Positions 2,383-13,212 of a stretch of DNA of 41,628 nucleotides are shown piece by piece. Source of the stretch: Candidatus Mediterraneibacter excrementavium. GTDB taxonomy: Bacteria; Bacillota; Clostridia; Lachnospirales; Lachnospiraceae. The translations under genes were made by a program, and so were the position numbers. The DNA lies in contig DWVL01000032.1 of assembly GCA_019120275.1 (NCBI GenBank), positions 1 through 41,628 of the forward strand, written 5' to 3'. The stretch's first letter is position 1. Every line of letters begins with the position of its first letter. A model generated the notes under the pieces. That model searched no databases. It was not told the origin of the DNA and saw nothing but the letters and a program-made list of their open reading frames with translations.

Positions 2383-3828
2383 ATGGAGAAAGAAAAATCC
2401 GGAGATAAACGGGAAATGTACCGGCAGCGGCTGATCTGCCTGGGGCGGACGGCGCTGATCGTGCTGGCGGCGAGCCTGATCAGTCTTTATCTGAACTGGT
2501 CCGGCGTGATGAAAGAGAATATCCTCATGGTCCTCCTGATCGGCGTCCTGCTGACCGGGGCATTCACGTCGGGCTATGAATACGGGGTGATCGGAGCGGT
2601 GGCAAGCGTTCTGATCTTTAACTTTTTCTTTACTGTGCCGGTGCATACATTTGCCATTATGAATCCGGATGACGTTGTGCTGATGGCTTTTTTTCTTGCG
2701 GCGGCGTTTATCTCCTCCGGGATGACGGCGCGTTTCCGCAGGCAGGCGGCCATTGCCGGGGAGAATGAACGGACGGCGCGGAAGATGTCGGAGATGTCGG
2801 AGCGCTTTATCAATGTGACCGGGGAAGAGCAGATCATCGCCCTTGGCGTATATTACATCCGGGAAAATACCGGATATGAGGCTTCAGTCAGACTGACCGA
2901 TGATGAAACGGCAAACCATACAAATGACCGGAGAGAGATCGTGATCTTTCCCATCGGCGGCATCATGCACCAGACGGGGGAACTTCGGATCTGGACAAAG
3001 GACCGCGGCATCAGCGCGGAGCACGAGATATTTATCCGCGCGGTGGCAGGACAGATGGGCATCGCGCTGGACCGGGAGAAGATTTATTCCGAACAGGAGA
3101 AGACCCGGCTGCAGGTGGAGCGGGAGCATCTGAAAAGCAGTATGCTGCGCAGCATTTCCCATGATTTCCGCACGCCGCTCACAGGGATCATCGGCGACTG
3201 CGACCTGATCCTGCAGAAACGTGTGACAGATGAACGGGAGAAGGACGGCCTGGTGAAAGATATCCGCGAGCAGAGCATGTGGCTGACGCGAACGATGGAG
3301 AATATTCTCAGCATGACGAAGATCGAGAGCGGTGCGGAGTTTATCAGCCGCAAAGAAGAGGTCCTGGAAGACCTGGTCTATGAGGCGGAGCGTCATGTGA
3401 GCGGCCTGAAGGATTCGAGAAAATTCGAACAGACCATGCCGGAGGAAGTGCTTACCGCGAATGTGGATGCACGTCTGATGGTGCAGGTGCTTGTCAACCT
3501 TCTGGACAATGCCGTAAAGAATACGACGGAAGGCGGATCCATCTGGCTCCGGGTCTATTACCGGAACGGCCGGGCGTATTTTGTCGTTGAGGACAACGGG
3601 CGGGGGATCGAGCCGGGGCAGGAACAGGCGATCTTCGGAGAATTCGTCTCCCTGTCCGGACAGGGGCCTGACCAGAAGCACGGCATGGGACTGGGACTTG
3701 CCATCTGCAGGCAGGTGATCGAGGCCCACGGCGGAGAGATCTGGGCGGAGAACCGTGCGGAAGGCGGCGCCCGGTTTACATTCTGGCTGAATGCAGCGGA
3801 TGCGGCAGGAGCCGGGGATCAGAAATAA
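2383..3828 (+). CDS. KdpD-like sensor histidine kinase lacking the KdpD N-terminal domain
   Basis: A 481-residue membrane histidine kinase. Residues about 20-115 form four hydrophobic helices of the DUF4118 type found in KdpD. A GAF-like region follows (about 140-230), then the kinase core: H-box SISHDFRTPLTGI with phosphoacceptor His260, N-box LVNLLDNAVKN (about 370-380), G1 EDNGRGIEP (about 403) and G2 HGMGLGLAICRQV (about 433-445). Full-length KdpD carries an additional roughly 400-residue N-terminal KdpD/Usp region that is absent. The response regulator follows 20 bases downstream. No kdpFABC genes are nearby, so potassium or turgor sensing is a family-based guess. Confidence 0.9.
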   Translation: MEKEKSGDKREMYRQRLICLGRTALIVLAASLISLYLNWSGVMKENILMVLLIGVLLTGAFTSGYEYGVIGAVASVLIFNFFFTVPVHTFAIMNPDDVVLMAFFLAAAFISSGMTARFRRQAAIAGENERTARKMSEMSERFINVTGEEQIIALGVYYIRENTGYEASVRLTDDETANHTNDRREIVIFPIGGIMHQTGELRIWTKDRGISAEHEIFIRAVAGQMGIALDREKIYSEQEKTRLQVEREHLKSSMLRSISHDFRTPLTGIIGDCDLILQKRVTDEREKDGLVKDIREQSMWLTRTMENILSMTKIESGAEFISRKEEVLEDLVYEAERHVSGLKDSRKFEQTMPEEVLTANVDARLMVQVLVNLLDNAVKNTTEGGSIWLRVYYRNGRAYFVVEDNGRGIEPGQEQAIFGEFVSLSGQGPDQKHGMGLGLAICRQVIEAHGGEIWAENRAEGGARFTFWLNAADAAGAGDQK

Positions 3829-3848
3829 CAGCGAAAGAGGAAATGATC

Positions 3849-4535
3849 ATGGAGAACAAGCGGACCATACTGATCGTTGAGGATGATAAATACATCATAC
3901 ATTTTCTGTCGGTCAGCCTGAAGGAGGAGGCGTATACATTCTGGACGGCCGGGACGGTCAAAGAAGCCTTAAGCCTTTTTTATGCCAACCGGCCGGATCT
4001 GGTGATCCTGGATCTGGGACTGCCGGACGGGGACGGACTGGATGTGGTAAAGCGGATCCGGGAGATTGCATCCACGCCGGTGATCGTTGTATCGGCGAGG
4101 CAGGAAGAGGGAGAGAAGATCCGGCTTCTGGACGCCGGGGCGGATGATTATGTGACTAAGCCGTTTTACATGGGCGAGCTGCTGGCGCGGATCCGTGCGG
4201 CGCTCAGAAAGGCGGAGAAGAGCAGCAACGGTCCGGGCTCCACATTTGAGGACGGGGATCTGCTGGTGGATTATGAGAAGCGCCGGGTCGAGGTGGCCGG
4301 GCAGGAAGTCCATCTGACGCCCATCGAATATAAGATCCTCTGTCTGCTGATCGCAAACCGGGGCAAGGTGCTGACCCATCACTACATGCTGAAGGAGATA
4401 TGGGGATACGCCGAGGGCGTGGAAGCGGGAACGCTCAGGGTATTTATGGCGACCCTGAGGCGGAAGATCGAGAAAAACCCGTCCGAGCCGGAACACATCG
4501 TGACGGAAGTCGGCGTGGGATACAGATTTAAGTGA
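3849..4535 (+). CDS. KdpE-like OmpR-family response regulator
   Basis: A 228-residue response regulator. The receiver domain has acidic pocket EDD near residue 12, phosphoacceptor Asp55 in LVILDLGLPDGDG, and Lys in DYVTKPF. The winged-helix DNA-binding domain spans about 130-228, with LTPIEYKILCLL and a terminal TEVGVGYRFK, very like KdpE. The ATG at 3849 (MENKRTILIVEDD) is favoured because AAAGAGG lies 8 bases upstream; the ATG at 3843 would leave only about two bases. It forms an operon with the kinase. Regulon unknown. Confidence 0.92.
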   Translation: MENKRTILIVEDDKYIIHFLSVSLKEEAYTFWTAGTVKEALSLFYANRPDLVILDLGLPDGDGLDVVKRIREIASTPVIVVSARQEEGEKIRLLDAGADDYVTKPFYMGELLARIRAALRKAEKSSNGPGSTFEDGDLLVDYEKRRVEVAGQEVHLTPIEYKILCLLIANRGKVLTHHYMLKEIWGYAEGVEAGTLRVFMATLRRKIEKNPSEPEHIVTEVGVGYRFK

Positions 4536-4540
4536 GAAAT

Positions 4541-4597
4541 TAAAATAACAGGCGCAGGAGACGGGGCGTTTATAAATCTTCATCTTCTGCGCCTGTT
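4541..4597 (-). terminator. Terminator of the sensory hydrogenase operon, overlapping the PHP stop codon
   Basis: A 14-base stem (4584-4597 with 4547-4560, one imperfect pair) encloses the TGA of the PHP gene. On the minus strand it is followed by TTATTTTAATTT. It probably also stops plus-strand transcription from the response regulator gene, though the plus side lacks a U-run. Confidence 0.7.
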
Positions 4598-5302
4598 CAG
4601 CGCTTCCAGTATATCCGGTATTTCACGGGAGTGTGCATACAGCCGGTATTCCGGTTCGCGGATGTCCCACAGATAATGGGCGTCGGAACAGCAGATCACA
4701 TTGCAGTCCTGAAAATACGGATGCTCCCGGCGGATCCGGTGGAGATTGGCAAAATCATGGAATTCCGCGCAGGAAAATGTGCTTCCCGGAGGGACGAACC
4801 CCAGATTGGATATCAGGCTGGTGGACGTTTTGTCGACATGGGCGGGATAGGCGATCCCGTGGTATTCCGACACGAGAGGAAACACATCGTCAAAAGAAAC
4901 GGACACCGCGTTGATGAGCAGATTTTCCACGGTCCCGGTTACCTCGTCTTTTTCATTCATGATCTGCTGCTTCCCGAAGATGTCCTCCCGGTTCGGGAAG
5001 GGCATGAGTTTTGCCTCGATCAGTGTGTCAAATGAAAGGGCGTCCTGCAGGGAAGGAAAGAGGCAGATCACGTGGATCTCTTCCTCTGTCGTCAGTTCCA
5101 TGCCCGGGATCACGGTGACGCCGTATTCTGCGCCGTGATGCATGGCAGCGGGACAGTTCTTACAGGTGTTGTGATCCGTGAGGGCGATCACATCCAGTCC
5201 TTTTACAGCGGCCATTCCGACCAGGTTAGCTGGCGTCATGTCATCATCCCCGCAGGGAGAGAGGCAGGAATGGATGTGCAGATCGTAATAGAGCGGGATC
5301 AT
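4580..5302 (-). CDS. PHP-domain phosphoesterase
   Basis: A 240-residue PHP (polymerase and histidinol phosphatase) protein, a family of metal-dependent phosphoesterases. Metal ligands are visible: HIH (His9, His11), TDHN (Asp43-His44), Glu69 in GMELTTEEE, His77, His154 in YPAHVDK, and the terminal CSDAHYL (Asp207, His209). The substrate cannot be read from sequence. The ATG overlaps the stop of the preceding DRTGG gene by four bases (ATGA) without its own strong ribosome site, indicating translational coupling. It is the last gene of an operon with a hydrogenase-like sensor, so it may reset a phosphorylated or nucleotide signal; this is inference. Confidence 0.9.
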   Translation of the reverse strand: MIPLYYDLHIHSCLSPCGDDDMTPANLVGMAAVKGLDVIALTDHNTCKNCPAAMHHGAEYGVTVIPGMELTTEEEIHVICLFPSLQDALSFDTLIEAKLMPFPNREDIFGKQQIMNEKDEVTGTVENLLINAVSVSFDDVFPLVSEYHGIAYPAHVDKTSTSLISNLGFVPPGSTFSCAEFHDFANLHRIRREHPYFQDCNVICCSDAHYLWDIREPEYRLYAHSREIPDILEALNRRRR

Positions 5303-5631
5303 AGGCCGCCCGCCTCATGGATCTCCAGTGCGATATCGAATACCGGCAGGTCAGTGGCAAGTATGGAGATCTTTTCTTCTTCAGCTTTGGCGAGCGTCCC
5401 TTCATCCAGGGAGACGCCCTCGGCCAGTACGATGCAGGCGACTTCCGCCAGTGATGCCACCGCAAGCGTGTTGCGGTTTCCCATGACGGTTACCCAGACG
5501 CTGCCTGCGGGCGCTTTGCTCATGGCAATGCTCAGAAGGTCGCAGCAGAAGATGGTTGTTATTTCACGTTCCGGATCGCCTTTTACCAGCGTACGGCATT
5601 CCGGAAGATCCAGTATGGTCTGAAGTTTCAT
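5299..5631 (-). CDS. DRTGG-domain protein (second copy in operon)
   Basis: A 110-residue protein resembling stand-alone DRTGG-domain proteins, a small alpha/beta domain also found in some phosphotransacetylases and CBS-domain proteins. The region VWVTVMGNRNTLAVASLAEV then CIVLAEGVSLDE and the end ISILATDLPVFDIALEIHEAG match the pattern of the other copy at 7544 (SVLITG.., CCIIFVRG.., IAVLATDHYMF). The role is unknown; ligand or protein-interaction sensing is usually proposed. It sits between the hydrogenase-like gene (15 bp) and the PHP gene (4-bp overlap). Confidence 0.75.
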   Translation of the reverse strand: MKLQTILDLPECRTLVKGDPEREITTIFCCDLLSIAMSKAPAGSVWVTVMGNRNTLAVASLAEVACIVLAEGVSLDEGTLAKAEEEKISILATDLPVFDIALEIHEAGGL

Positions 5632-5646
5632 GATCAGCAGTCCTTT

Positions 5647-7044
5647 CTATTTTCTGTTTTCCGGAACGCCAAAAGAAGCAAGGTCGGCGGTCAGTTCCCG
5701 GATATAGCGGTGCAGCAGCTCATCGTCTTCGGCAGACAGGGTCTGTCCGGCGGTTACACCCTCCGTCAGGTCATTGATCTTGCGGGAGAGTTCCGCGATA
5801 TTGGAGCGAAGAACGTAAATGCAGTCATTTGGGGTTGCATCACCTCTTACGATGTCTTCGGCAAGTGTCTGACACGTCGGCGCACCGCAGGATCCGCAGT
5901 CCAGGCCGGGGAACATGGCGGTCAGCTTTTCCACATCGCTCATCATCTGCAGGCTTTCCCTGAACGTATTCCCGAGCCGGAAGACAGGTTCATACTCCAC
6001 GTTGTCCGCCCAGTAGATGTTTTTCAGTTCCGGATTTTCGCTCAGGTGATTCCGGGATACCGGCTGGTATTTGGTGAGCCGCTTTGTCTTCGTGGCGGCG
6101 ATGTAGGCGTTTTCTACGGTGAGGGTGCCGCCGGCGCATCCGCCGTCGCAGGCGTTCAGCTCTACGAAAGTCAGGCCGTGCAGCTTCTCGTCTTCCAGCT
6201 GTTCCAGCACTCTTAAGATATTGACGATCCCGTCTGCCGCCAGATAGTTTTCGACCAGCAGTCCGGCTACCTCTCCGCCGGCATTGCTCCAGCCGATGCC
6301 GATCCGCCCGGAATGGGACAGGGGTTTAAGCTGGCTCTCATCATGCTTCATGTGGGGCAGCAGGAGCGGATAGATGTCCTTGATCGCCACGACATTGTCG
6401 ATGCTGCTTTTTTCAATCCCGAGAGGGGATTTTGCGTAGGAAACTTTGGACGGGCACGGTGAGATGAAAATGATGCCGATCTCCTCCGGTTTCAGTCCTG
6501 TCTTTTTCATGGCCCGCGCCCGGGCGATCTCCGCCGCTACTTCCACCGGTGCTTTGATGGGCAGCAGGCGGGAGACAAGGGACGGGAATTTGACCCGGAT
6601 CAGCCGGATCACGGACGGACAGGCCGAACTGATGAAAGGGGCATCATCCATATGTTCTTTGATGTATTCACGGGATGCCTCGGAAACCAGTTCTGCGGCG
6701 GCACTCACTTCATAGACGTCGTCGAATCCCAGCTTCAGCAGGGCGTTCAGAACAATGTCCACATTGGTCAGGTTATTGTACTGTGCATAGAGTGACGGAG
6801 CCGGCAGCGCTATGGCATATTTGAAATTGTTGATCACGCTCAATGGATCGTAGACGGCAATCTTCGCATGATGCGGACAGTAGCGGATGCACCGGCCGCA
6901 GTCGATGCAGAATTTGTCTATAATATGCGCTTTGCCGTTATGTACACGGATCGCCTGGGTCGGGCAGTTCTTGATGCAGTTGATGCAGCCTCTGCAGGCG
7001 GATTCCCGGAGGCGTACGGAACGTATGAATTTATTACTGTTCAA
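5647..7044 (-). CDS. [FeFe]-hydrogenase-like protein, probable sensory type
   Basis: A 465-residue protein. Two [4Fe-4S] ferredoxin motifs (Cys17/20/23/27 and 46/49/52/56) precede a hydrogenase large-subunit domain, and the C-terminus has an FeS domain with Cys383/386/391/408. The H-cluster motifs are diverged. L1 reads SSACPS, keeping the ligand (Cys142) but with Ala141 where catalytic enzymes have the proton-relay Cys. L2 is SPCPSK (Cys197, Lys200 kept, usual Met is Ser). L3 is ELNACDGGC (Cys299, Cys303 and Glu295 kept, usual Met is Asn). This suggests an H-cluster is bound but turnover is poor, as proposed for sensory groups of this family. The start is TTG at 7044 with AAGGAG 8 bases upstream. 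Confidence 0.88.
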   Translation of the reverse strand: MNSNKFIRSVRLRESACRGCINCIKNCPTQAIRVHNGKAHIIDKFCIDCGRCIRYCPHHAKIAVYDPLSVINNFKYAIALPAPSLYAQYNNLTNVDIVLNALLKLGFDDVYEVSAAAELVSEASREYIKEHMDDAPFISSACPSVIRLIRVKFPSLVSRLLPIKAPVEVAAEIARARAMKKTGLKPEEIGIIFISPCPSKVSYAKSPLGIEKSSIDNVVAIKDIYPLLLPHMKHDESQLKPLSHSGRIGIGWSNAGGEVAGLLVENYLAADGIVNILRVLEQLEDEKLHGLTFVELNACDGGCAGGTLTVENAYIAATKTKRLTKYQPVSRNHLSENPELKNIYWADNVEYEPVFRLGNTFRESLQMMSDVEKLTAMFPGLDCGSCGAPTCQTLAEDIVRGDATPNDCIYVLRSNIAELSRKINDLTEGVTAGQTLSAEDDELLHRYIRELTADLASFGVPENRK

Positions 7045-7100
7045 ACTCCGTTCTCCTTTCTTGTGATCTCTGCATGTGGCCGGCCGGGAAATATCCGTAT

Positions 7101-7541
7101 TTATGTCCGGTCGGGATCCTGCAGTTTCACTTTCATAGTGATCGTGGTTCCCTCGCCGAGAACGGCATCGATCTTCATTTCATCAGTAAAGCGTTTCATG
7201 TTCGGCAGGCCCATGCCTGCGCCGAAACCGAGGGAGCGCACTTCCGCGCGGGCGGTAGAATACCCTTCCTGCATGGCTTTTTCGATATCAGGGATGCCGG
7301 GGCCGTGATCAGCCAGCACCATTGTGATAGCGTCATCGGATATGATCACAGTGATCTTTCCGCCGTCGGCGTGGATCACCATGTTGATCTCACCCTCGTA
7401 CATGGCGATCGCTGTCTTGCGGATCGCGTTACTGTCTACGCCAAGCATTTTCAGACGGTTTTTAACGGCGCTGCTGGCTTCCCCTGCGCGGGTAAAGTCG
7501 CTGCCGTCAATATCGTAAGTAAAAACAAGGGGTTCTCCCAT
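7101..7541 (-). CDS. RsbW-like ATP-binding protein (anti-sigma factor/serine kinase family)
   Basis: A 146-residue GHKL ATPase of the RsbW/SpoIIAB type: N-box YEGEINMVIHADGG (about 48-61), G1 ADHGPGIPD (77-85) and G2 GFGAGMGLPNM (105-115). RsbW proteins phosphorylate a small antagonist on serine and may bind a sigma factor. No STAS antagonist or sigma factor is encoded nearby, so the partner is unknown; the adjacent DRTGG proteins are candidates. It begins 2 bases after the stop of the first DRTGG gene with GGGGAGG 9 bases before its ATG, and is followed by the hydrogenase-like gene. Confidence 0.88.
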   Translation of the reverse strand: MGEPLVFTYDIDGSDFTRAGEASSAVKNRLKMLGVDSNAIRKTAIAMYEGEINMVIHADGGKITVIISDDAITMVLADHGPGIPDIEKAMQEGYSTARAEVRSLGFGAGMGLPNMKRFTDEMKIDAVLGEGTTITMKVKLQDPDRT

Positions 7542-7543
7542 AA

Positions 7544-7888
7544 TCAGGCACCTCCCCGCAGTCCGTTTTCGTACAGGATGCCGCAGGTTGTGAACATATA
7601 GTGGTCTGTGGCCAGCACAGCGATGGATTTGCCGCGTGCCAGCGCCAGCATGTTTTCATCCGGCATCTTGCCCCGGACAAAGATGATGCAGCATATGTCC
7701 AGCATTTCTGCAGTGCGTACGACCTGGGGGTTGCACAGGCCGGTGATAAGTACGGAACATTTCCCGCAGAATGCGAGCACATCGCTCATCATGTCCGCGG
7801 AAAAAACATATTGCGCATCCAGATCCCCCAGTTCCTCACCATACAGAAAACGGGCGTCAAGAACTTTCTGCATTTCTCTGATCGTCAT
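7544..7888 (-). CDS. DRTGG-domain protein (first gene of sensory operon)
   Basis: A 114-residue DRTGG-type protein, the first gene of a five-gene operon running to 4580. The pattern is a short N-terminal helix (MTIREMQKVLDARFL), a cysteine-containing core (CGKCSVLITGLCNPQVVRTA), then CCIIFVRGKMPDENML and the conserved IAVLATDHYMFTTCGILYE. Five cysteines lie in the first two-thirds, but no classical metal motif is evident. It has a good ribosome site (GGAGGAACT before ATG) and a clear promoter upstream. Function unknown; the partner ATPase follows directly. Confidence 0.78.
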   Translation of the reverse strand: MTIREMQKVLDARFLYGEELGDLDAQYVFSADMMSDVLAFCGKCSVLITGLCNPQVVRTAEMLDICCIIFVRGKMPDENMLALARGKSIAVLATDHYMFTTCGILYENGLRGGA

Positions 7889-7932
7889 AGTTCCTCCTCA
7901 TATAAATCCATGGAATATTTACTGTTTCAGTC

Positions 7933-7961
7933 AGTATATCATCTGGATTTTTAAAAAGCAA
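7933..7961 (-). promoter_or_regulatory. sigma-A promoter of the sensory hydrogenase operon
   Basis: On the minus strand, TTGCTT (7956-7961) and TATACT (7933-7938) with a 17-base spacer. Just upstream of the -35, at 7965-7981, is an imperfect palindrome TTGT-N9-AACAA. It is reminiscent of, but not identical to, the clostridial Rex operator (TTGTTAA-N4-TTAACAA, 18 bases); here it is 17 bases with mismatched arms. Confidence 0.65.
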
Positions 7962-8040
7962 TAATTGTATAAACATAACAAAAATATAAGGCTAAATAAT
8001 TAGAAAACAAATGGTATATATGTGAATGTATACAGAAAAT

Positions 8041-8083
8041 TTACAATTATTAAGTGACAGATTGTAAAAAAATATGGTATTAT
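8041..8083 (+). promoter_or_regulatory. Promoter and possible operator of the hyd operon
   Basis: GTGACA (8054-8059) and TATTAT (8078-8083) with an 18-base spacer form a plausible promoter. A perfect 7-base inverted repeat, TTACAAT (8041-8047) and ATTGTAA (8061-8067), brackets the -35 and could be a repressor site. The whole divergent gap (7889-8167, about 280 bases) is AT-rich, unlike the surrounding GC-balanced genes. The leader runs about 75 bases before a GGAGG site 7 bases upstream of hydC. Confidence 0.5.
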
Positions 8084-8167
8084 ATCTGAAATGAGTATAA
8101 AAAACAACCTGTAAACCGTTTCTTTGTCTGACAACGGAGTACGGGGAGGAGAAATGGAGGTTGAAGA

Positions 8168-8662
8168 ATGGCAGCTAAGAAAGGGACAGTTCCATTTTCC
8201 GGGACGAAAGAGCAGGAAGAAGCCCTGATGCAGGCGATCCGGGAGCTCAGGGAGGAAAAGGGCGCGCTGATGCCGATCCTGCAGAAAGCCCAGGATATTT
8301 ACGGCTATCTGCCCTATGAGGTCCAGAAGATGATCTCGGACGAGACAGGGATCCCCATGGAGAAGATTTACGGCGTCGCGACATTTTATTCACAGTTCAC
8401 CATGACGCCGAAGGGGAAGTACAGGATCTCCGTCTGTCTGGGAACCGCCTGTTATGTAAAAGGATCGGGCGATATTTACAATGCACTGATGGAGAAGCTG
8501 GGCATCGTGGGCGGCGAATGTACGCCGGACGGGAAATTCTCACTGGATGCCTGCCGCTGTGTGGGCGCGTGCGGCCTCGCGCCGGTCATGATGATCAACG
8601 ATGAAGTTTACGGCCGCCTGACCGTGGACGATATCGACGACATCCTGGCCAAATACGAATAG
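8168..8662 (+). CDS. hydC: Electron-bifurcating hydrogenase subunit HydC (NuoE-like)
   Basis: A 164-residue NuoE/24-kDa-type subunit carrying one [2Fe-2S] cluster in a thioredoxin-like fold. Ligands are Cys90 and Cys95 (SVCLGTACYVKG) and Cys131 and Cys135 (CRCVGACGLAPV). The N-terminal half has the usual helical segment with LMPILQKAQDIYGYLP and GVATFYSQF. It is the first gene of the five-gene operon ending in hydA. In HydABC enzymes it works with HydB at the NADH side of the complex. Confidence 0.95.
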   Translation: MAAKKGTVPFSGTKEQEEALMQAIRELREEKGALMPILQKAQDIYGYLPYEVQKMISDETGIPMEKIYGVATFYSQFTMTPKGKYRISVCLGTACYVKGSGDIYNALMEKLGIVGGECTPDGKFSLDACRCVGACGLAPVMMINDEVYGRLTVDDIDDILAKYE

Positions 8663-8665
8663 CCT

Positions 8666-9226
8666 ATGATGCCGGAGATCTCTCTGAACATCCTGGATGT
8701 AGCTGAGAATTCCGTGCGTGCCGGAGCGGATCTGATCCGGATCACTGTATCCGCGAAGCCCGAGGATGACACGCTCACCGTGGTCATAGCGGATGACGGA
8801 TGCGGGATGAGTAAGGAGCAGGAACGTCAGGTGACGGATCCCTTCTATACCACAAGAACGACCCGGAAAGTCGGACTTGGCGTGCCGTTTTTCAAACAGG
8901 CGGCGGAAGGGACGGGCGGCAGTTTCAGGATCGAATCGGAAAAGGGGAAAGGAACCACGGTGACAGCGGTCTTCGGACTGTCCCATATTGACCGGATGCC
9001 GCTGGGGGATATCAGTTCCACCATCCATACGCTGATCGTATTTAATGAAAAGATCGATTTTGTGTATACATATGAGTACGGCGGCAGAAGCTTCACACTG
9101 GATACCCGCGAGATGCGGGAGATCCTGGGGACGGACGTATCTTTTGCCGGACCGGAAGTGTCGTCGTTTATCCGGGAATATCTGGAGACGAACAAAGCGG
9201 AGACGGACGGCGGAGCGGATATATGA
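8666..9226 (+). CDS. Histidine-kinase-like ATPase without phosphoacceptor domain
   Basis: A 186-residue protein that is only a GHKL ATPase domain plus a C-terminal extension: N-box LDVAENSVRAGA (10-21), G1 ADDGCGMS (42-49), a DPFYTTR segment and G2 KVGLGVPFFKQ. There is no H-box or membrane segment before the ATPase. Residues about 105-186 are of no family I recognise. It starts 3 bases after hydC and lacks a clear ribosome site, so it is probably translationally coupled. Such ATPases recur inside clostridial hydABC operons; the role, regulatory or assembly, is not established. It is distinct from the RsbW-like ATPase of the divergent operon. Confidence 0.82.
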   Translation: MMPEISLNILDVAENSVRAGADLIRITVSAKPEDDTLTVVIADDGCGMSKEQERQVTDPFYTTRTTRKVGLGVPFFKQAAEGTGGSFRIESEKGKGTTVTAVFGLSHIDRMPLGDISSTIHTLIVFNEKIDFVYTYEYGGRSFTLDTREMREILGTDVSFAGPEVSSFIREYLETNKAETDGGADI

Positions 9227-9262
9227 GAATAATATCATTTATGACAGGAACGGAGGAATCAT

Positions 9263-9643
9263 ATGAAATCTCTTGAAGAATTACGTGCAATACGGGAGAA
9301 GATGCAGGGCAAAGTCGGACTGCGCGAGGAAAATGAGAATCAGATCCGCGTGGTAGTCGGTATGGCGACCTGCGGGATCGCGAGCGGTGCAAGACCGGTT
9401 CTGACCGCGCTTTCCGATGCGGTGCAGGAGCAGAACTTAAGCGAGAAGATCTGCGTGACCCAGACCGGCTGCATCGGCCTGTGCCAGTACGAACCCATCG
9501 TGGAAGTGCTGGAGCCTGGCAAAGAAAAAGTAACCTATGTAAAGATGACGCCGGAGAAAGCGCTGGAAGTCCTGCGGCTTCATCTGATCGGCGGGCAGGT
9601 TGTGACCAAGTATACCCTGAGCGCCGCACAGAACAGCTTGTAA
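9263..9643 (+). CDS. Thioredoxin-like [2Fe-2S] ferredoxin-type protein of hyd operon
   Basis: A 126-residue small ferredoxin-domain protein, similar to the N-terminal domain of HydB and to HydC. The second half has the standard QTGCIGLC pair (Cys70, Cys74). In the first half the usual C-x4-C is reduced to a single Cys37 (MATCGIASGARP); Cys64 (KICVTQ) is the only other cysteine. The cluster may be ligated by Cys37/64/70/74 or be incomplete. It follows the kinase-like ATPase and precedes hydB, with GGAGG 6 bases before its ATG. It probably shuttles electrons in the complex, but some trimeric enzymes lack it. Confidence 0.85.
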   Translation: MKSLEELRAIREKMQGKVGLREENENQIRVVVGMATCGIASGARPVLTALSDAVQEQNLSEKICVTQTGCIGLCQYEPIVEVLEPGKEKVTYVKMTPEKALEVLRLHLIGGQVVTKYTLSAAQNSL

Positions 9644-9663
9644 AGGAAGGGGGCTTAAGATAA

Positions 9664-11451
9664 ATGTATCGTTCACATGTACTTGTCTGCGGTGGGACCG
9701 GATGTACCTCTTCCGGAAGCCAGCGGATCAGAGACCGGCTGGAGAAGGAGATCGCGGCCCACGGGCTGTCCGAGGAAGTCGGCGTGGTTAAGACCGGTTG
9801 TTTCGGACTGTGCGCGCTGGGACCGATCATGATCGTTTATCCGGAAGGCACTTTTTATTCCATGGTGCAGGAGGAGGACATCCCGGAGATCGTATCCGAG
9901 CATCTCCTGAAAGGAAGGGTGGTTAAGCGGCTGCTCTATGAAGAGACGACCAAGACGGAAAAGATCATTCCCCTCAATGAGACGAACTTTTATAAGAAAC
10001 AGCACCGGGTGGCGCTGCGCAACTGCGGCGTGATCAACCCGGAGAATATCGAGGAATACATCGGCACCGGCGGCTATGAGGCGCTGGGTATCGTGCTCAC
10101 GGAGAAGACGCCGGAAGACGTGATCCAGATTCTGCTGGACAGCGGCCTTCGCGGACGCGGCGGCGCCGGATTCCCAACGGGCCTGAAGTGGAAGTTCGCG
10201 GCGGCTAATGAAGCGGATCAGAAATATGTCTGCTGCAACGCGGACGAGGGCGACCCGGGGGCGTTCATGGACCGTTCCATCCTGGAGGGCGATCCCCACG
10301 CCGTGCTGGAGGCTATGGCCATTGCCGGCTATGCCATCGGCGCATCCCAGGGATATATTTACGTGCGTGCGGAGTACCCCATCGCGGTGAAGCGTCTGCA
10401 GATTGCCATTAACCAGGCCAGAGAATACGGTCTGCTGGGTGAAAATATATTCGACACCGGATTTAATTTCGACATCGAATTGCGGCTCGGTGCAGGCGCG
10501 TTCGTCTGCGGCGAGGAGACGGCGCTGATGACCTCCATCGAGGGCAACCGGGGCGAACCCCGTCCCCGTCCGCCGTTCCCGGCGCTTAAGGGCCTGTTCC
10601 AGAAGCCCACGATCCTCAATAACGTGGAGACCTACGCGAACATCCCGCAGATCATCGTCAACGGTCCGGAATGGTTCGCATCCATGGGTACGGAGAAATC
10701 CAAAGGAACGAAAGTATTCGCCCTGGGCGGCAAGATCCACAATACCGGACTGGTGGAAGTGCCCATGGGAACAACGCTCCGGGAGATCGTCGAGGAGATC
10801 GGCGGCGGCATCCCCGGCGGTAAGAAGTTCAAAGCGGCCCAGACCGGCGGACCGTCCGGCGGATGCATCCCGGAGGAGCATCTGGACGTGCCCATCGATT
10901 ACGACAACCTGAAAGCCATCGGATCCATGATGGGTTCCGGCGGCCTGATCATTATGGATGAGGACACCTGTATGGTGGATATCGCCAAGTTCTTCCTGGA
11001 ATTTACCGTGGATGAGTCCTGTGGCAAATGTACGCCCTGCCGGATTGGCACGCGGCGCATGCTGGAGATCCTGGAGAAGATCACCAAAGGCCAGGCGACG
11101 ATGGACGACCTGGATAAACTGGAGGAACTGTGTCACCACCTGCAGACCAGTTCCCTGTGCGCCCTCGGACAGACGGCGCCCAATCCGGTGATCTCCACCC
11201 TGCGGTACTTCAGGGATGAATATATCGCCCACATCGTGGATAAGAAATGTCCGGCGGGCGTCTGCAAAGATCTGCTCCAGTATAAGATCGATCCGGACAA
11301 GTGCAGGGGCTGTACGCTCTGTGCAAGGACCTGTCCGGCGGACGCGATCATCGGCAAAGTAAAAGAAGTACATATGATCAACCCGGAAAAATGTCTGAAA
11401 TGCGGCGCCTGCATGGAAAAATGCCGGTTCGGTGCGATCTATAAAGAATAA
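9664..11451 (+). CDS. hydB: Electron-bifurcating hydrogenase subunit HydB (NuoF-like)
   Basis: A 595-residue flavoprotein subunit that binds FMN and NAD(H), the site of electron bifurcation or confurcation. Domains in order: N-terminal [2Fe-2S] thioredoxin-like (Cys9, 14, 46, 50); NuoF core with GRGGAGFPTGLKW (about 164-176); SLBB region; the N3-type [4Fe-4S] ligands Cys453/456/459 and Cys499; then two C-terminal [4Fe-4S] ferredoxin motifs (Cys547/550/553/557 and 577/580/583/587). This architecture is diagnostic of HydB in NADH/ferredoxin hydrogenases rather than of complex I NuoF. It is 15 bases upstream of hydA. Confidence 0.96.
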   Translation: MYRSHVLVCGGTGCTSSGSQRIRDRLEKEIAAHGLSEEVGVVKTGCFGLCALGPIMIVYPEGTFYSMVQEEDIPEIVSEHLLKGRVVKRLLYEETTKTEKIIPLNETNFYKKQHRVALRNCGVINPENIEEYIGTGGYEALGIVLTEKTPEDVIQILLDSGLRGRGGAGFPTGLKWKFAAANEADQKYVCCNADEGDPGAFMDRSILEGDPHAVLEAMAIAGYAIGASQGYIYVRAEYPIAVKRLQIAINQAREYGLLGENIFDTGFNFDIELRLGAGAFVCGEETALMTSIEGNRGEPRPRPPFPALKGLFQKPTILNNVETYANIPQIIVNGPEWFASMGTEKSKGTKVFALGGKIHNTGLVEVPMGTTLREIVEEIGGGIPGGKKFKAAQTGGPSGGCIPEEHLDVPIDYDNLKAIGSMMGSGGLIIMDEDTCMVDIAKFFLEFTVDESCGKCTPCRIGTRRMLEILEKITKGQATMDDLDKLEELCHHLQTSSLCALGQTAPNPVISTLRYFRDEYIAHIVDKKCPAGVCKDLLQYKIDPDKCRGCTLCARTCPADAIIGKVKEVHMINPEKCLKCGACMEKCRFGAIYKE

Positions 11452-11466
11452 GGGAGGGCAGTGAGA

Positions 11467-13212
11467 ATGGAAAAAGTGAATTTAAAGATCAACGGCCTCG
11501 ATGTAACTGCGCCCGCGGGTTCAACGATCCTGGAAGCCGCACAGTCGGCGGGGATCCGCATCCCGACCCTGTGTTATCTGAAAGATATCAACGAGATCGG
11601 CGCCTGCCGGATGTGCGTGGTGGAAGTAAAAGGCGCCCGCGGCCTGGTGGCGTCCTGTGTCTATCCCGTATCGGAAGGCATGGAAGTGCTGACCAACACG
11701 AAACAGCTGCTTGATTCCCGCAGGCGGACGCTGGAACTCCTCCTGTCAAATCACGACAGGAAATGTCTCTCCTGTGTGCGGAGCGGACACTGCGAACTGC
11801 AGGAACTGTGCCAGGAACTGGGTGTGACCGATGAAGATCATTTCGCAGGTGAGATGCCTCATTATGAACTGGATGAGAGCGCGGTCCATATGGTGCGCGA
11901 CAACAATAAATGCATCCTCTGCCGCCGGTGCTCGGCTGTGTGCGAGAAGGTGCAGAGTGTGGGCGTGATCGGCCCCAATAACCGGGGATTTGCCACCTTT
12001 ATCGGCTCTGCTTTCGAGATGGGGCTGGGAGATACCAGCTGCGTATCCTGCGGTCAGTGCATCGCGGCCTGTCCCACTGGAGCGCTCTATGAAAAGAGCA
12101 ACATCGATGATGTGCTGGCGGCCATTGCCGATGAAACCAAACACGTGGTTGTACAGCCGGCTCCGTCCGTCCGTGCGGCTCTCGGCGAAGAGTTCGGCTA
12201 TCCCATGGGAACGGATGTGGAAGGAAAGATGGCGGCAGCGCTCCGCAGGATCGGATTCGACAAAGTATTTGACACGGATTTCAGCGCGGACCTTACGATC
12301 ATGGAAGAGGCCCATGAGTTCCTGGACCGGGTGCAGAACGGCGGCGTGCTGCCTATGATGACCTCCTGCTCGCCGGGCTGGATCAAGTACTGTGAACATT
12401 ATTATCCGGATCAGTTGGAGCATCTGTCAACATGCAAATCACCGCAGCAGATGTTCGGCGCCGTGACAAAGACCTATTATGCAGAGAAGATGGGCATCGC
12501 TCCCGAAGATATCGTGTGTGTCAGCGTGATGCCCTGTACGGCAAAGAAGTTTGAGATCCGCCGTGACGATCAGGATGCGGCCGGCATGCCGGATGTGGAC
12601 ATTTCCATTACCACACGGGAACTGGCGCGGCTGATCCGCAAGGTCGGCATCGACTTCCGGCGCCTGCCGGATGAAGGCTTCGATGATCCTCTGGGTGAAT
12701 CTACGGGAGCCGGCGTTATCTTCGGCGCCACCGGCGGCGTTATGGAAGCGGCTCTCCGCACGGCAGTGGAGAAGCTGACCGGCGAACCGCTTGAAAAAGT
12801 AGAGTTTATGGAAGTGCGCGGCACAGACGGTATCAAAGAAGCCACCTACAATGTGGCGGGAATGGACGTTAAAGTGGCCGTCGCTTCCGGCCTGTCCAAC
12901 GCGAAGATCATCATGGATAAAGTCCGCTCCGGCGAGGCAGACTATCATTTTATTGAGATCATGTGCTGCCCGGGCGGATGCGTAAACGGCGGCGGCCAGC
13001 CCCAGGTGCACGCAGACGTGCGCAACTTCACCGATGTGAAAGCCCTGCGCGCGAAAGCGCTCTACGACAATGATGCTGCGAAGCCGCTCCGGAAGTCCCA
13101 TGAGAACCCGTCCATCCAGAAACTGTACAGCGAATATCTGGGCAAACCGGGAAGTGAGAGGGCGCATCATATCCTGCATACAACGTATGTGAAGCGGACG
13201 GTGAATTTCTGA
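11467..13212 (+). CDS. hydA: Electron-bifurcating [FeFe]-hydrogenase catalytic subunit HydA
   Basis: A 581-residue catalytic subunit, group A. In order: NuoG-like [2Fe-2S] (Cys36/47/50/64), His-Cys3 [4Fe-4S] (His96, Cys100/103/109), two ferredoxin clusters (149-159 and 192-202), and the H-cluster domain with L1 TSCSPGW (299-305), L2 MPCTAKKFE (355-363) and L3 EIMCCPGGCVNGGGQP (ligands Cys501, Cys505). L1 has Ser at the second position of the classical TSCCP pair, discussed in the findings. The ATG at 11467 is preferred over the GTG at 11461 because GGAGGG lies 8 bases upstream of the ATG and only 2 from the GTG. It makes H2 from NADH plus reduced ferredoxin. Confidence 0.96.
   Translation: MEKVNLKINGLDVTAPAGSTILEAAQSAGIRIPTLCYLKDINEIGACRMCVVEVKGARGLVASCVYPVSEGMEVLTNTKQLLDSRRRTLELLLSNHDRKCLSCVRSGHCELQELCQELGVTDEDHFAGEMPHYELDESAVHMVRDNNKCILCRRCSAVCEKVQSVGVIGPNNRGFATFIGSAFEMGLGDTSCVSCGQCIAACPTGALYEKSNIDDVLAAIADETKHVVVQPAPSVRAALGEEFGYPMGTDVEGKMAAALRRIGFDKVFDTDFSADLTIMEEAHEFLDRVQNGGVLPMMTSCSPGWIKYCEHYYPDQLEHLSTCKSPQQMFGAVTKTYYAEKMGIAPEDIVCVSVMPCTAKKFEIRRDDQDAAGMPDVDISITTRELARLIRKVGIDFRRLPDEGFDDPLGESTGAGVIFGATGGVMEAALRTAVEKLTGEPLEKVEFMEVRGTDGIKEATYNVAGMDVKVAVASGLSNAKIIMDKVRSGEADYHFIEIMCCPGGCVNGGGQPQVHADVRNFTDVKALRAKALYDNDAAKPLRKSHENPSIQKLYSEYLGKPGSERAHHILHTTYVKRTVNF

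Follow-up and report, generated by a model that had tools for sequence, protein, structure and literature searches.

A gene set inherited with a putative group D sensory [FeFe]-hydrogenase, mostly beside the bifurcating hydrogenase HydABC

The window, by which we mean the whole stretch of DNA analysed, is contig DWVL01000032.1 (positions 1-41,628; 41,628 nucleotides) of Candidatus Mediterraneibacter excrementavium, whose assembly holds 2.16 Mb in 96 contigs. On its minus strand (4580-7888) five genes form a module around HydS, a putative sensory [FeFe]-hydrogenase. In order of transcription these encode DRTGG1 (7544-7888), a single DRTGG domain protein of 114 amino acids (aa); HATP1 (7101-7541, 146 aa), a GHKL ATPase resembling SpoIIAB and RsbW and probably a switch protein of the Ser/Thr kinase type; HydS itself (5647-7044, TTG start); DRTGG2 (5299-5631, 110 aa), a second DRTGG domain protein; and PHP (4580-5302, 240 aa), a PHP-family protein predicted to be a metal-dependent phosphoesterase. 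Counting from PHP back to DRTGG1, the first two genes overlap by 4 bases and the gaps that follow measure 15, 56 and 2 bases. Each gene has Pfam matches above the cut-off: PHP at 1.1e-9, DRTGG2 at 3.7e-6, HATP1 at 3.7e-11 (HATPase_c_2), DRTGG1 at 5.5e-8, and HydS at 3.8e-30 (Fe_hyd_lg_C) and 1.4e-12 (C-terminal FeS) together with a [4Fe-4S] dicluster. An earlier note, made from the letters of the window, had described five packed genes for DRTGG, RsbW-like ATPase, hydrogenase-like, DRTGG and PHP proteins, and both coordinates and Pfam bear this out.

Divergent from the module, on the plus strand, lies the hyd operon (8168-13212). It encodes HydC (8168-8662), a NuoE-like subunit of a bifurcating hydrogenase (Pfam 2Fe-2S_thioredx, 1.1e-52); HATP2 (8666-9226), a second GHKL ATPase (HATPase_c, 4.6e-17); HydC2 (9263-9643), a small thioredoxin-like [2Fe-2S] protein whose 2Fe-2S_thioredx match falls slightly below the cut-off; the hydrogenase subunit HydB (9664-11451; Complex1_51K, 3.2e-46); and HydA (11461-13212), whose closest solved relative is HydA1 of 7Q4V (phmmer, 9e-224), which we take to be the Acetobacterium bifurcating enzyme. 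HydC, HydB and HydA are the probable clients of the module. In the L1 motif of HydA, TSCSPGW, Ser replaces the H-cluster ligand Cys300 of CpI, and HydA1 of 7Q4V shows the same.

HydS comprises two N-terminal [4Fe-4S] motifs, an H-cluster domain with the motifs SSACPSV (L1), SPCPSK (L2) and ELNACDGGC (L3), and a C-terminal Cx2Cx4Cx16C motif whose C383, C386, C391 and C408 are invariant. In a profile alignment with CpI, A141 falls at C299, S195 at M353 and N297 at M497. We took a residue census of 160 HydS sequences, of which 108 are the distinct members of the first sets, with the window among them, and 52 come from a phylum sample. All four H-cluster Cys, all eight N-terminal cluster Cys and all four C-terminal ones are kept in 160/160, and the L2 Lys in 156/160. 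The CpI 299 place holds Ala (140), Ser (16), Thr (2), Val (1) or Gly (1) and never Cys; the 353 place holds Ser (119), Thr (38) or Ala (3) and never Met; the 497 place holds Asn (99), Gln (26), Leu (11), Asp (10) or one of eight rarer residues, again never Met. The altered active site claimed for the window protein, with cluster Cys and L2 Lys retained, Ala for the relay Cys and both Met lost, is therefore confirmed.

The window HydS has no PAS match in Pfam; a group C paralogue does have the domain. HydS belongs to group D (M2e): it has the cluster Cys, the changes at C299 and M353, the C-terminal cluster and hydABC as a neighbour, and it lacks PAS. We make the assignment because this pattern matches the published description of the group (PMC8163306; here and below, papers are cited for the parts available to us). 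The sensory-type reading of the earlier note is supported, and we treat HydS as a putative sensor, a function proposed in print. Genes for HydG and HydF lie elsewhere in the host genome, so the H-cluster can probably be built. The group C HydS of the same genome (L002 1492-3201, G000:C4; 569 aa, with PAS domain) keeps the proton-relay Cys (TTCCPSV) and by eye has Gly at the M353 place, which makes two sensor-type hydrogenases within one small genome.

The order DRTGG1-HATP1-HydS-DRTGG2-PHP is nearly constant in our first set, made up of the window and 114 further loci (108 once seven duplicates were dropped). It recurs across the phylum sample, whose 52 loci were picked from the matches listed at roughly one per family, so the arrangement is more than chance. 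By the HydS tree the nearest named relatives of the window are Mediterraneibacter species and related bacteria, mostly Lachnospiraceae. Partner adjacency was scored at loci with at least 2.5 kb on either side of HydS. HATP1 adjoins HydS in 93/94 first-set loci and 44/44 phylum loci, the sole miss being L150, where other genes lie in between; all four partners stand beside HydS in 87/94 and 33/44, respectively. Inserted genes split the module in L150 (8080-9521) and in L189 (6603-7757, transposase-like by eye), where the upstream DRTGG gene is present but displaced; the module otherwise stays. HydB lies within about 10 kb in 61/67 first-set and 31/37 phylum loci that have at least 8 kb on either side. 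The association with hydABC, which the earlier note had proposed to check, is therefore non-random, but the five-gene order is not always beside hydABC, since in a few families the neighbours are Rnf genes.

The divergent layout that the note mentioned is present in the window and is not the usual one in the phylum sample. In the phylum sample 34 loci are colinear, 4 divergent and 14 unscored, and the colinear run goes from the module into NuoE-HATP2-HydC2-HydB-HydA; first-set loci are mostly divergent (80/108). On a FastTree tree of the 160 HydS sequences, 5 changes between layouts are needed among 124 scored loci, the count leaving out 36/160 (18 with short flanks, 15 in which hydABC was not seen and 3 with another order). 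The HydS tree is unrooted; as the phylum sample is mostly one colinear run, the divergent layout of the window is probably derived.

We next consider inheritance across 150 family genomes, no two of them from one genus, with the cut between orthologues and paralogues set in the gap between E-values. These genomes are related, so Fisher values on the overlap of gene sets are not strict probabilities. Orthologues of HydS were found in 35/150 genomes (worst 1.9e-125, next match 4.9e-40), as were those of HATP2 (3.4e-62 versus 1.1e-19), HydC2 (1e-40 versus 5.5e-24), DRTGG2 (1.8e-34 versus 3.4e-20, the latter being the DRTGG1 of the module itself) and PHP (worst 9.1e-83, no other at 1e-25). HATP1 (5.1e-61 versus 3.6e-18) and DRTGG1 (5.9e-37 versus 5.9e-15) have orthologues in 34/150. 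The 35 genomes are identical for the first five genes and include the 34 of the other two, whose single miss (G097) has HydS at a contig end; none of the seven genes occurs at orthologue level in the other 115 genomes. In the family, HydS, HATP1, DRTGG1, DRTGG2, PHP, HATP2 and HydC2 are inherited as one set, mostly beside HydABC. We call this set the kit.

HydB with at least 71% identity is found in 34/35 HydS genomes and in 7/115 genomes that lack HydS. In the 35th HydS genome, G109, HydB is apparently cut at a contig edge. We considered G109 as a case of HATP2 without hydABC and rejected it: the HydC2-like match in its 153-aa edge frame looks like the N-terminus of the cut-off HydB. The seven HydS-less genomes have the operon NuoE-HydB-HydA (HydB 73-86% identity), and HATP2 and HydC2 are missing at 7/7 of these loci, the two weak HATP2 matches (25-27 bits) lying in unrelated long proteins. 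HATP2 and HydC2 thus follow the sensor in the family, not the hydrogenase; because they track HydS and are missing where a close hydABC stands without it, the unit is larger than five genes. The five-gene module of the earlier note stands as one co-inherited unit, with its boundary drawn too tightly. At two of the seven HydS-less loci a group C (PAS-type) HydS and a SpoIIE-type phosphatase adjoin hydABC. HydB frames at these seven loci (L245-L251) are 626-636 aa long, compared with 595 in the window, and in six of the genomes the N-terminus of HydB gives a weak HydC2-like match, none being listed for G145.

What the partners may do can be judged from folds and conserved residues. HATP1 matches SpoIIAB by profile (6.1e-12), its model (predicted local distance difference test score, pLDDT, 93.5) finds SpoIIAB and then RsbW as best Protein Data Bank (PDB) folds, and E49/N53 and D78/G80/G82 are invariant among 29 sequences; it has both the GHKL fold and the residues of the N and G1 boxes. 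DRTGG1 and HATP1 are one protein in L193 and L196 (L193 also by Pfam). CBS pairs are carried by HATP1 in L194 and L226 (Pfam) and in L189 (phmmer); Pfam finds none on HATP1 of the window. Two long forms of HATP1, of 357 aa (L068) and 253 aa (L204), were examined as fusions and rejected, their extra N-terminal parts looking like open-frame read-through. HATP2 resembles, by profile, the ATPase domains of histidine (sensor) kinases and MutL; the window protein has HATPase matches alone in Pfam and no HisKA match, so it lacks the HisKA/DHp part of a two-component histidine kinase.

The DRTGG fold is assigned to DRTGG1 by Pfam and Foldseek and to DRTGG2 by Pfam only. An AlphaFold2 model of DRTGG1 (pLDDT 91.9) has AF1212 (2IOJ) as its best PDB match, followed by the CBS-DRTGG part of a clostridial pyrophosphatase (3L2B/3L31) and then HPr kinase. 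Each DRTGG protein has one invariant Ser (S35 in DRTGG1, S34 in DRTGG2) that would suit a possible phosphosite. A distant alignment to 2IOJ puts Gln at this place with low confidence, with a Ser close by, and does not decide the matter. That the DRTGG proteins serve as a scaffold or read nucleotides, in the way of CBS-DRTGG proteins, appears at least as likely as a role as phospho-acceptor. In PHP, D6, H8, H10, D42, H43, E68, H76, H154, D206 and H208 are invariant among 26 sequences and are presumably metal ligands. The nearest solved proteins by profile are EndoQ, TM0559, PHP phosphoesterases and a 5'-3' exoribonuclease; PHP fits the residue set of a metal-dependent phosphoesterase, which is its predicted activity.

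Some families add further neighbours. In 4/52 phylum loci (L187, L189, L193 and L196; Pfam on L193 and L196) the gene directly upstream of the module is one that we take, from its motif, to be Rex, and a Rex-like gene lies downstream in L223 and L227. Rnf genes follow in 7/52 phylum loci, past hydABC in L192, L196, L199 and L216 and with no HydBA between in L222, L226 and L228 (RnfC by Pfam in L222). A response regulator directly precedes HATP1 in L195 and L230 (Pfam on L195). In L195, where DRTGG2, PHP and hydABC are missing, HydS is followed by an Fe-S protein of 637 aa (7037-8947) that weakly matches HydS. Fusions, upstream Rex and downstream Rnf point to a hub of ferredoxin, NADH and H2.

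The earlier note had given the module one promoter and one terminator. A likely module promoter (7933-7961, minus strand), first found by eye, has -35 TTGCTT, a 17-base spacer and -10 TATACT; among the 13 closest named relatives examined, 9 have it in the corresponding position (L072-L076, L078, L079, L081 and L082). A consensus promoter scan was no better than shuffles (5 found versus 3.7 +/- 2.3 expected) and did not include this site. A likely promoter of the hyd operon (8054-8083, plus strand), from the consensus scan, agrees with the consensus at 10/12 positions and has TG ahead of its -10; in an alignment of near relatives, the columns of its 3' part rank with the better conserved ones. 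The two promoter-like sites stand head to head in a gap of 279 bases. At the other end of the module a strong two-way terminator-like hairpin (4548-4599, both strands; fold z -4.27), not listed by a simple terminator scan that, like the promoter scan, did not rise above shuffles, lies between PHP and a convergent response regulator gene. That gene and one for a DUF4118 histidine kinase (window 2383-4535), which we take to be a KdpDE-like pair, share this hairpin with the module.

Our reading, to which we give a probability of about 0.55, is that the kit serves a group D sensory hydrogenase as its signalling apparatus and controls HydABC at the protein level in the manner of a partner switch. 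HydS would read H2 and/or the redox state of ferredoxin via its H-cluster and N-terminal clusters and would change shape, and this change would gate HATP1, acting as an ATPase or kinase of the SpoIIAB/RsbW kind. DRTGG1 would be the direct partner of HATP1, as their gene fusion suggests. DRTGG2 and PHP would form a resetting arm that hydrolyses a phospho-product or a nucleotide ligand, and HATP2, from within the hyd operon, would be the arm that meets HydABC. We favour protein-level control over transcription because sensor and client usually form one gene run and because we saw no DNA-binding protein that belongs to the module throughout. Much more tentatively, this may be a distinct kind of signal transduction, with DRTGG proteins in the place of STAS proteins, one GHKL ATPase for the sensor and one for the client, and PHP as the reset; it would integrate H2, ferredoxin and, in the CBS lineages, adenine nucleotides, and so set the activity of the ferredoxin:NAD enzymes HydABC and Rnf.

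Several points weigh against our reading. Inspection of the neighbour lists by eye, no genome-wide search having been made, showed neither a STAS protein nor a sigma factor, so the classic partners of RsbW seem to be lacking. The upstream DRTGG gene, the downstream DRTGG gene and PHP were not found beside HydS in 7, 3 and 8, respectively, of the 44 phylum loci. L195 and L230 keep HATP1 alone of the neighbours, L197 keeps HATP1 together with DRTGG1, and HydB is nearby in none of the three. Interaction, phosphotransfer and phenotype among kit members are predictions from sequence, and gene order is the sole basis for choosing between protein-level and transcriptional control. An operon that moved and was lost as a block could also leave perfect co-inheritance.

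In the model of the earlier note the module senses H2 or ferredoxin and, via kinase and phosphoesterase, alters transcription of the hyd operon. The head-to-head promoter-like sites would suit this, as would the Rex and Rex-like genes of six loci, the response regulator upstream of HATP1 in two, and the reported link between raised adhE expression and deletion of hfsB, whose product is a group C HydS homologue (PMC5707799). We nevertheless think it rather unlikely, given that we saw no constant DNA-binding member and that few loci of the phylum sample (4/38 scored) are divergent. An inverted repeat over the hyd promoter (TTTACAAT-N13-ATTGTAAA, 8040-8068), which we tried as an operator, was rejected because by eye it is unconserved in near relatives. 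If the kit proteins were instead assembly, stability or accessory factors of HydABC, with no part in signalling, their genes would be expected to run with hydABC, as they do (in L071 the module genes lie between NuoE and HATP2), and a co-occurring redox-type protein such as HydC2 would fit. This seems improbable to us, since the seven HydS-less genomes have a close HydABC and no kit gene, the module stands beside Rnf without HydBA in three loci, and HydS has sensor-type changes at its active site.

Two further explanations concern the sensor and the set as such. HydS might be a CO-tolerant hydrogenase with a role in electron transfer and with incidental neighbours; its cluster Cys are invariant and TamHydS, the homologue compared below, retains H2 turnover (PMC8163306), but HydS is inherited strictly together with two ATPases, two DRTGG proteins and PHP, which makes this very improbable. 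Block transfer and loss of one long operon, and nothing more, would account for a kit that is usually one linked block. We find this scarcely credible: relative orientation changes about 5 times on the HydS tree and the pairing with hydABC outlasts these changes, and G120 retains DRTGG2-PHP although the pair is some 330 kb away from HydS, so linkage alone does not explain the co-occurrence.

The co-inherited set gives a short, testable list of partners for group D sensory hydrogenases, and genomes with a close hydrogenase and without the kit are natural controls. Since the kit stands beside Rnf or Rex in some families, it bears on the balance of ferredoxin, NADH and H2 in anaerobes. The extent of the kit is what we add; the sensor class, its proposed role, its placement near hydABC and a kinase neighbour were already known. 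Group D proteins are proposed sensors that lie beside bifurcating hydrogenases, often with a histidine/serine kinase in between (PMC3561251; PMC3608648; PMC8163306). The pathway from sensor to output, which the earlier note called undescribed, was thus partly in print as a sensory proposal with a kinase neighbour, and the signalling route is still open there. A recent account reports that the C-terminal cluster of group D is not reduced by H2, and it gives the partners as unknown and calls finding them critical (PMC13104023, 2026). We found no link between DRTGG and a sensory hydrogenase in the literature searched, to which Calusinska 2010, the likeliest to draw these clusters, and Zheng 2014 did not belong. 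In the available parts of PMC8163306, PMC5886521 and PMC3561251 we saw neither DRTGG nor PHP proteins named as partners of a sensory hydrogenase; the one paper with both hydrogenase and DRTGG concerns another protein, and among DRTGG papers none is on a sensory hydrogenase by title and start of abstract.

Among known systems, the group C (M2f) HydS/HfsB proteins are likewise proposed sensors of H2 or redox state beside another hydrogenase (PMC5707799, PMC11837493, PMC10055695), but they have a PAS domain, and their neighbour is a serine phosphatase (SpoIIE-type) or Ser/Thr kinase in place of HATP1, DRTGG and PHP. The anti-sigma kinases SpoIIAB and RsbW share fold and ATP-site motifs with HATP1. 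Its partner, unlike theirs, seems to be a DRTGG protein, and neither a STAS antagonist nor a sigma factor was seen nearby. The CBS-DRTGG part of CBS-pyrophosphatase shares the DRTGG fold with the kit, and its CBS parts, which bind AMP, ADP, ATP and diadenosine polyphosphates (PMC10742508), recall the CBS pairs fused to HATP1 in some families; the kit differs in having separate proteins and no pyrophosphatase, and in the window HATP1 is without CBS.

The closest counterpart is TamHydS of Thermoanaerobacter mathranii, which has lost Cys299 and M497, has Ser for M353, carries the C-terminal Cx2Cx4Cx16C and no PAS domain, and lies near a bifurcating hydABC and a histidine-kinase-like ATPase, all as in HydS. 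It nevertheless interconverts H+ and H2 and is CO-tolerant (PMC8163306), and its secondary structure changes with H2 (PMC13104023). In T. mathranii hfsB has been deleted (PMC5707799). In its available parts the TamHydS account (PMC8163306) differs in that DRTGG (a word found 0 times), PHP, HATP2 and HydC2 are not named and the other neighbour is reported as an AraC-type regulator. In L188, whose HydS is TamHydS-like with Ala, Ser and Leu at the three positions, the gene after HydS (8507-8857) is DRTGG2 and has no AraC domain by Pfam. By analogy, the AraC neighbour of TamHydS may be a mis-annotated DRTGG2.

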